Origin: Bryum argenteum
Lineage: Eukaryota; Streptophyta; Bryopsida; Bryales; Bryaceae
Direction of reading: 5' to 3'
Assembly (NCBI GenBank): GCA_037043015.1
Contig: CM073325.1
Span: 12,503,001 to 12,567,000, forward strand
Length of the DNA: 64,000 bases
Shown piece by piece: positions 38,606-61,274 of the stretch. Within the stretch, counting starts at the first letter, position 1. Each line of letters starts with the position of its first letter. The notes beneath the pieces are model-generated. The model had not been told where the DNA came from and ran no database searches. It saw only the letters and a list, made by a program, of their open reading frames with translations. The position numbers and the translations under genes are program-made.

Positions 38606-38859
38606 TTAACCCCGAAATTTCCTTGTTGCAAAACGGTCTAAGTTACAAAATTTGACCTTCCTTTAAATTAAGCTCAAAAAATTTCAATCTAAGCATTATT
38701 AAAAGATCTCAAAGTTCACTTGGCATTCTTCTCACATACCAAATTTGAACTGTTCATTCTTCCTCATTTGGGAGATTATAATGGTCAAAGTTGGCTGAGT
38801 TTTTCTCCCGCAGGAACCTCCAAAACCCGTTTCAGGTTTTAAGGAAAGTTAGGGGTAAA
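38606..38859 (-). mobile_element. TTAA-end element, family F, copy 1 (uninterrupted)
   Basis: TTAA (38606-38609) is followed by CCCCGAAATTTCCTTG; the other end reads CTTTAAGG-like sequence then AGTTAGGGG and TAAA. Inverted, it matches copy 2 at 48.7-49.2 kb across its full length, including CTCCCGCAGGAACCTCC and GACCTTCCTTTAAATTAAGC. It keeps the undisturbed site (TTTCC-TTAA-AACC on the minus strand) where copy 2 carries an insertion. Confidence 0.75.
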
Positions 38860-48699: not shown

Positions 48700-49217
48700 A
48701 TACCCCAAGCTTACCATTGCCCTCTCCTTAACCCTTAAACGTCATATGCTGTCCTGATACCACACCCAAAATCTCTTTTAAAACTCCACTTTTAGCATTA
48801 TTCTATTTTTAATTTGCGTGAGCTCTATTCTAAGAAAGTATAGATCTCTTTAAGGTGCTCAGTTTGGAATTTTAAAAATTCCATTTGGTATAATGGAGTG
48901 TAAGTTATGAGCAAGATTCTCTCAAAAAAAAACCCAACCCCTCGGGCTGGGTCTGACGTTTAAGGGTTAAAACCCAAAACGGGTTTTGGAGGTTCCCGCA
49001 GGAGAAAAACTCAGTCAAATTTGACCATTATAATCTCACAAATGAGGAAGAATGAACGGTTCAAATTTGGTACGTGAGAAGAATGTCAAGTGAACTTTGA
49101 GATCTTACGGTTGAATCTTTTAAATAATGCTTAGATTGAGATCTTTGGAGCTTAATCTAAAGGAAGGTCAAATTTTGTCACTTAGACCGTTTCGCAACAA
49201 GGAGAGTTAGGGGTTAA
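48700..49217 (+). mobile_element. TTAA-end element, family F, copy 2, interrupted by element E
   Basis: The right portion (48971-49213) matches copy 1 inverted and ends GTTAGGGG-TTAA (49210-49217). The left terminus is separated from it by the 235-bp element E, which sits at the TTAA that copy 1 keeps intact. Confidence 0.75.
48728..48970. mobile_element. piggyBac-like MITE (element E), 235 bp between TTAA duplications
   Basis: TTAACCCTTAAACGTCA at 48728-48744 is perfectly inverted at 48954-48970. Taking TTAA as target duplication, the element is 48732-48966 with 13-bp perfect terminal inverted repeats CCCTTAAACGTCA. TTAA duplication plus a CCC-start terminus is the piggyBac signature. It has no coding capacity. 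Near its right end is a small hairpin, ACCCAACCCCTCGGGCTGGGT. Confidence 0.85.
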
Positions 49218-56984: not shown

Positions 56985-57965
56985 TTAACCCCTAGACGCC
57001 CCTAGTGTCGAAAAACGACATTTTGGATGAAGGGCAGAAACTTTGAAGAGCCATAACTTCTTCATCCAAACTCTGTTTTTGACAAAATCACTTGGGTCAG
57101 GTCACAAATCAAGTCTAGTTTATGTGGTAAAAATTGCAGACTCATAAAATAAATTATGTGTAAATGGCATGGATTTTAGTGAAGGCAGCTTTTGTTTTTG
57201 GGTTTTCAAACATTTGGCATGTTTTACCATTGCAAGCCAATTATGTGAAATCTAAAATAGTTTTTCATGAATTTTTTTTTGTAGGTTTGATATTTAGATG
57301 CATCTCAACAACTTTGTAGTTGGAAGTTTTTTGATTTAGATAACTTTGGTATTGGCTTTGCAATGATGTTTCTACGATGAAAAAAGTGAAAAAATGGATG
57401 ATTTTTGAAGAGCTAGATCTCCTTCATCCACCGTTAGATTTTGACTTTATTTTTTTGGGATGGATTCCAATTATAGTCTATTATTAGTGGTAGAAACCTT
57501 AACCCAATCGAGGATATATTGAAGAAAAGGCATGGATTTGAGTGCGAGGGGTCTAGTTTTGGAATATTTTTCCTTTGTAAAATTTTTGGCAGTTTTCACG
57601 ACTACAAGGCTACTATTTGATCCAAGATTTTTTTTTGATGACTTTTTTTGGTACAAAAGTGTCTTTGAGATGAAGATGAACAACTTTCTAGTTGTTGATT
57701 TTTTGATTGCAAATTTCATGTTGGTAGTATTTTCACTTCAAAGTGGAAATGATTGTATTCTGTAGCCTGTTTTGCGCACTAGTATGTTATGATCTCGCAA
57801 TCTATGAGGTCCCATGAGTCAAGTTTTGATCCACATGATCTACTACAAGTTTATTACAAGTTTGTACGGTTGAGATCTGAATAGCTTATCTTCATTTTCA
57901 TCTATATCACTTTTTTTGAAAATGAGTTTTTGGCTAAAAATACCCCAAGGACGTTTAGGGGTTAA
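56985..57965 (+). mobile_element. TTAA element, family A, complete copy (973 bp)
   Basis: TTAA at 56985-56988 is followed by CCCCTAGACGCCCCTAG. The right end is CCCCAAGGACGTTTAGGGG and TTAA (57962-57965). Terminal inverted repeats are imperfect, about 10-16 bp. Open frames inside (57471-57719 and 57532-57765) overlap on opposite strands and resemble no transposase, so the element looks non-autonomous. Confidence 0.8.
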
Positions 57966-60904: not shown

Positions 60905-61274
60905 TTAACCCTTTAACGCCCATGGGGTGTGAAACGGGCAGCCCAAAATTGGATCACAACATCTTTTGGACTTGGGCATCATGAATAGTGCACTTTTTGA
61001 ACTTGGGCATCATGAATGCACCAATCAATGATGAGCTTGCAACCTCCTACAAGGTTATGTACAACCCCAACCTACCTACCACAATCCTTTCAAAGCACAA
61101 AATCACTCATACAAATTGTGATTTGAATTGTAAAATTTCACTTTTTGAATGCATCACAAGAAGGTGACCAGTTTGGCATCAAAATATAAGTGAAAAGTTG
61201 AGTACATTGAGAGCTACAAAGAAGATTCTGTTGGAAGGTGACCCCTCGGGTCACCTTGGGCGTTTAAGGGTTAA
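60905..61274. mobile_element. piggyBac-like MITE (element D), 362 bp between TTAA sites
   Basis: TTAA (60905-60908), CCCTTTAACGCCCA at the left, TGGGCGTTTAAGGG at the right, TTAA (61271-61274). The 14-bp terminal inverted repeats differ at one base. A perfect subterminal hairpin GGTGACC-CCTC-GGGTCACC-like palindrome sits at about 61238-61255. Non-coding. Confidence 0.82.

Follow-up and report, generated by a model that had tools for sequence, protein, structure and literature searches.

A probable piggyBac-type MITE inserted at a TTAA within an earlier TTAA element in the genome of the moss Bryum argenteum

The window analysed here, a stretch of 64,000 nucleotides from Bryum argenteum, contains a nest of two transposable elements. 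Its most probable reading (about 0.9) is that the inner one, element E, is a short non-autonomous piggyBac-type MITE, put by a piggyBac transposase into an earlier-resident copy of family F, itself a TTAA MITE. Both are called non-autonomous piggyBac-type elements because of their TTAA flanks, their CCC ends and the occurrence of piggyBac transposases in association with shared outer bases. The nesting itself is an ordinary event. Of more interest is the abundance of piggyBac: the piggyBac-type elements of the moss genome, E among them, make up a population that is large and fairly young. The value of the nesting lies in the clean and repeated natural record of TTAA insertion that it provides in a plant, in which one target is seen about 1,780 times, either occupied or vacant.

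Element E, family F and the empty site

Element E spans positions 48732..48966 of the forward strand (235 bp) and is bounded by terminal inverted repeats that agree perfectly over 13 bp (CCCTTAAACGTCA / TGACGTTTAAGGG) and begin with CCC as in the piggyBac superfamily; when the adjoining TTAA target-site copies (left, 48728..48731; right, 48967..48970, both forward) are included, all 17 letters match. It has the features of a MITE, namely small size, high copy number, uniform length and inverted ends. Its 27-bp left end occurs 446 times in the genome at up to two mismatches, with no occurrence in the reversed control. Nineteen of the 20 top-scoring loci fit the search expression (L007 did not); all 19 measure 235 bp, and 18 are flanked by TTAA on both sides, the remaining copy having CTAA on the left. 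For a second sample, 20 copies were taken from the 100 listed among the 446, each of them matching the 27-bp left end exactly; here the left TTAA was built into the search pattern and is no test of that side, and the right-side TTAA is present in 20 of 20 copies, including L073, which missed the search expression and was read directly from the letters. Lengths in 19 copies of this sample range from 233 to 236 bp. The TTAA flanking these other copies sets the borders of E independently of F. E is therefore an element inserted at TTAA with TTAA duplicated, the length of the duplication being unreadable from a palindromic target. No Rfam match was obtained in the window.

The empty site is provided by copy F1 (38606..38859, minus strand), which reads CTTTCC-TTAA-AACCTGAAACGGGTTTTGGAGG on the minus strand, without E, and which has TTAA at 38606-38609 and TTTA at its other end. 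Copy F2 reads CTCTCC-TTAA-E-TTAA-AACCCAAAACGGGTTTTGGAGG, and its main part (48967..49217, forward strand) ends in ...GGAGAGTTAGGGGTTAA, the body to the right of E terminating at 49217 in GGGGTTAA. F is a TTAA element as well, since both of its ends have TTAACCCCTAACTYTCCTT in common. The nesting put forward in the original prediction is confirmed by these readings: F1 runs through a single TTAA at the very point where F2 has TTAA-E-TTAA, and E is younger than F as far as E and F2 are concerned. The earlier description of F2 is corrected at the left end of the copy, which is damaged beyond CTCTCC (48722..48727, forward strand), the recognisable remnant of its left inverted repeat. To the left of this remnant F2 no longer matches the F end TTAACCCCTAA, and 10 of 17 positions agree between the F2 left end and the F end. 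Over 48700-48727 the inverted repeat is altered, with only CTCTCC and a few scattered letters fitting TTAACCCCTAACTCTCC, and a rearrangement or small insertion probably occurred there. Because of this damage, the target duplication of F2 itself is unreadable.

The F junction across the genome

The 30 F loci most similar to F1, F1 itself among them, are all uninterrupted at the junction; 29 read TTAA and one (L038) reads TTGA. Since a selection by similarity to F1 favours loci without an insertion, the genome was also scanned by pattern. At up to three mismatches, 1740 uninterrupted F-end/F-body junctions were found (reversed control, 0), and each of the 100 listed is free of mismatches and reads TTAA. 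When the junction was scanned for a GGG-TTAA element end abutting the F body, 41 matches were obtained (control, 0), of which 40 are usable once L126, which reads TTTAACCCTTAA, is dropped. A bare TTAATTAA at the junction was found nowhere in the genome at up to three mismatches; its absence fits the seamless excision of piggyBac and equally fits no excision at all, and no excision event restoring a single TTAA was identified at the F site.

Forty of the 41 interrupted loci were fetched, that is all except the window's own, with the misfit L126 among them. Sixteen contain a complete arrangement of F end, TTAA, element, TTAA and F body within the 630 bp read leftward, their elements starting with TTAACCC and extending over 233-603 bp with both TTAA counted. 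In the other 24 the stretch read did not reveal a complete nest, and some of their ends look decayed, so that the 40 interrupted junctions are an upper bound. When the 40 stretches are grouped by chained similarity of at least 120 bp, with 24 of the stretches compared not being delimited elements, 16 fall with F, seven with a 370-bp element and 13 with a 981-bp element, and four stand alone. The last two elements are present in the window: the 370-bp TTAA element (60905..61274, forward strand; ends TTAACCCTTTAACGCCC / TTAACCCTTAAACGCCC, with CCC) has relatives sitting at this TTAA in other F copies, and the 981-bp TTAA element (56985..57965, forward strand; ends TTAACCCCTAGACGCCC / TTAACCCCTAAACGTCC, with CCC) has relatives that end there, the 13 stretches resembling it being shorter than the element itself. 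Close F copies nested in F are found at L096, L100, L108 and L120 (91-94% identity to F2), while some other members of the F group are linked to F only via one another. Since the nested sequences fall into several similarity groups, the interrupted junctions do not represent one inherited composite. These pattern scans perform the comparison of F copies across the junction that had been proposed with the original prediction, according to which a duplicated TTAA should appear only where E is present. The outcome agrees with the prediction, insertion with TTAA duplication being replicated, with the addition that several families besides E, F included, use the site.

Interruptions affect the junction TTAA in no more than 40 of 1780 cases (2.2%) and a second internal TTAA of F (GAGCTTAATCTAAAG) in 17 of 1348 (1.3%), the latter figure retaining 17 of 26 listed matches (those with GGGTTAA or GGGTTGA; nine with neither were dropped). 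The two frequencies differ at a Fisher p of 0.043 under unequal mismatch limits, and for this reason no preference is claimed. As the second internal TTAA is also struck, the junction is not special, and the idea of a unique hot spot was rejected; the occupancy of TTAA over the whole window is likewise 1.3% (five elements, namely E, F1, F2 and the 981-bp and 370-bp elements, for 383 TTAA). E is expected at the junction site about 0.5 times per genome, which makes a single E there unremarkable.

piggyBac transposases and the assignment of E and F

The PF13843 piggyBac transposase domain gives at least 116 scored matches over the cut-off in this genome, from 775 candidates, and none in 14 control genomes, one of which is Synechococcus and which have little bearing on plants. 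The 20 transposase loci read (L051-L070) form six clusters with mean identities between clusters of 28-45%, and many have long open frames, some reaching 900 aa and more. According to a motif expression, the three catalytic positions are present in 15 of the 20, one or two of them being absent from L053, L057, L063, L065 and L070 in the frame and expression used. Six PF13843 places have the identical score of 258.4 bits, hinting at recent copies.

Two full-length elements were read to both ends. Either end of the one at C1:23339974-23345172 (5199 bp) reads TTAA-CCCTTAAACGCCC, with TTAACCCTTAAACGCCC as the terminal sequence, and its open frame has 897 aa; the one at C2:21851246-21855714 (4469 bp) has a frame of 915 aa, with TTAACCCTTAAA at either end of the element. 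The C1 frame aligns to 6x67 (2e-29; also to 6x68) and to piggyBat 9c0f (7.7e-24), and aspartates match D268, D346 and D447 of 6x67 when counted along the alignment; we take 6x67/6x68 to be T. ni piggyBac and these three residues to be its catalytic triad. The C1 locus accordingly contains a DDD transposase with PF13843 inside a full-length element with matching ends, whose outer 10 bp (CCCTTAAACG) are common to E at both ends, followed by TCA in E and by CCC in the C1 element. A parent with the full 13-bp ends of E was not found among the 20 transposase loci read, two of them to both ends. The right end of the L052 element was read from L131; TTAACCCC, lying to the right of L051, L052 and L055, was considered as the other element end and rejected, being inside the transposase frame in L052.

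In comparison with the piggyBac superfamily (6x67/6x68; piggyBat 9c0f), the elements of this genome have the same TTAA flanks and CCC-starting ends, and the PF13843 transposase aligns from one end of the domain to the other and retains the three aspartates. They differ in that E is too short for a transposase, that the host is a plant, and that transposase frames of at least 900 aa with long N-terminal stretches are found here. We infer that one of these piggyBac transposases mobilised E by cut-and-paste chemistry. The transposase would have come from full-length elements elsewhere in the genome whose outermost bases are those of E; it would bind the CCCTTAAACG... ends of E and cut E from its donor site, after which E would be joined to a resident F copy at the TTAA that borders its left inverted repeat on the inner side and the four-base stagger filled in, leaving TTAA on either side. 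F would have arrived earlier by the same route, as another TTAA MITE family.

The original prediction also held that the empty site shows a TTAA duplication directly. TTAA does stand on both sides of E, but the empty site alone has no power over TTA, TAA or TA, which are inseparable from TTAA because TTAA contains them; the TTAA reading rests on the constancy of all four letters, on ends that start with CCC and on the presence of piggyBac transposases. Arithmetically, therefore, a TTA/TAA or TA duplication would also fit, and E and F could then be MITEs of Tourist-like (PIF/Harbinger) or Tc1/mariner type, the TTAA combining a target preference with an element end. Tourist and Stowaway MITEs with such duplications (TTA/TAA and TA, respectively) are established in angiosperms according to a review (PMC10004981), and Tourist elements share with E and F their small size and plant host. 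This assignment is nevertheless very improbable, since none of the four letters varies on either side in 18 of 19 E copies, or on the right side in 20 of 20 more, the ends are CCC, and a piggyBac transposase lies in an element sharing the outer 10 bp of E. Slightly less probable still is the mobilisation of E and F by another TTAA superfamily. Kolobok and Sola3 also duplicate TTAA, but both elements read to both ends combine CCCTTAAA ends with a piggyBac transposase, in a sample biased by its origin in a piggyBac transposase search.

Least credible, and close to negligible, is the proposal that an F subfamily includes E as a built-in component and that F1 arose by deletion. It draws on a second place where E adjoins F, C2:30817494-30818001 (L002), the second-best match to the whole composite, which reads TTAA-E-TTAA-F-TTAA. 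E lies there exactly at the outer terminal TTAA of F, and the locus is consequently a separate insertion and not a copy of the nest. Further arguments against it are the 1740 uninterrupted F junctions and the 446 E left ends in the genome; within the 20-base flanks printed for 39 E copies, F adjoins only the present copy (L001) and L002. E as a built-in part of F, the finding that the original prediction had named as its possible refutation, was thus sought and is itself refuted by the uninterrupted junctions and the outer-TTAA position. Insertion of a piggyBac-type MITE into a resident F copy remains the preferred reading.

Relative age and the piggyBac population of the moss

Beyond the single nest, the E family is probably younger than the F family, an order taken only from sequence divergence. 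The mean difference is 0.3% among 19 of the 20 top-scoring E copies, though these were selected by similarity; the second E set (19 aligned, L073 being left out by the search expression) differs by 2.9% pairwise and by about 1.5% from its consensus (66 changes). Divergence from consensus averages 4.3% for F (F1, 5.4%; F2, 5.5%) in a set made up of F2 and 29 loci, namely the 30 most similar to F1 less L024, which the search expression dropped. F landed in F too and hence had more than one round.

A broader proposal, advanced tentatively and at somewhat under even odds, is that the piggyBac population of this moss genome is large, diverse (six transposase clusters among the 20 loci read) and recently active, its TTAA MITEs numbering at least two thousand (1740 F junctions and 446 E ends), in a group of plants with no piggyBac report in the literature searched. 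On this view some families may still move, and they could have entered by horizontal transfer. Diverse plant piggyBac transposases with open frames, together with MITEs having matching outer ends, constitute useful material for asking how piggyBac reached mosses and whether it is still mobile there.

A survey of piggyBac elements in animals (PMC10813416) reports CCCTT as the best-conserved beginning of their ends, and a duplication that is usually TTAA. The piggyBac MITEs of animals (coral, PMC2872659; mPok of Daphnia, PMC4912750) resemble E in being short, non-autonomous and linked to piggyBac; their hosts are not plants, and the likeness is a general one, by description. Tourist MITEs are short plant elements as well, with a TTA/TAA target duplication (PMC10004981), and differ from the present families, which have a constant TTAA, CCC ends and piggyBac transposases sharing outer bases. 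That 2023 review places PiggyBac among the angiosperm MITE superfamilies, and a fern genome is listed with a small PiggyBac fraction (PMC6890710). For bryophytes, no report of piggyBac elements was found by title or abstract start among the entries listed from the open-licence literature, and one may exist all the same; the main text of a Physcomitrium transposon study (PMC7466625) contains no word beginning with 'piggy', and in PMC10619864 the word occurs as 'expression piggybacking of hub genes'.

On sequence evidence, too, the host is a plant and probably a moss. The product of a gene in the window matches galactan synthase 8d3t and is taken as that of a plant gene. Elsewhere in the assembly, contig C12 (L133) carries neighbouring psaA and psaB genes and is for this reason taken as probably plastid. 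Among solved structures, those closest to its psaB are 7ksq/7kux, 6l35/7xqp and 8htu at 1671 bits, followed by 9lut at 1632 bits and by the others shown at 1605 bits or less; the first entries are presumably moss (Physcomitrium) photosystem I.
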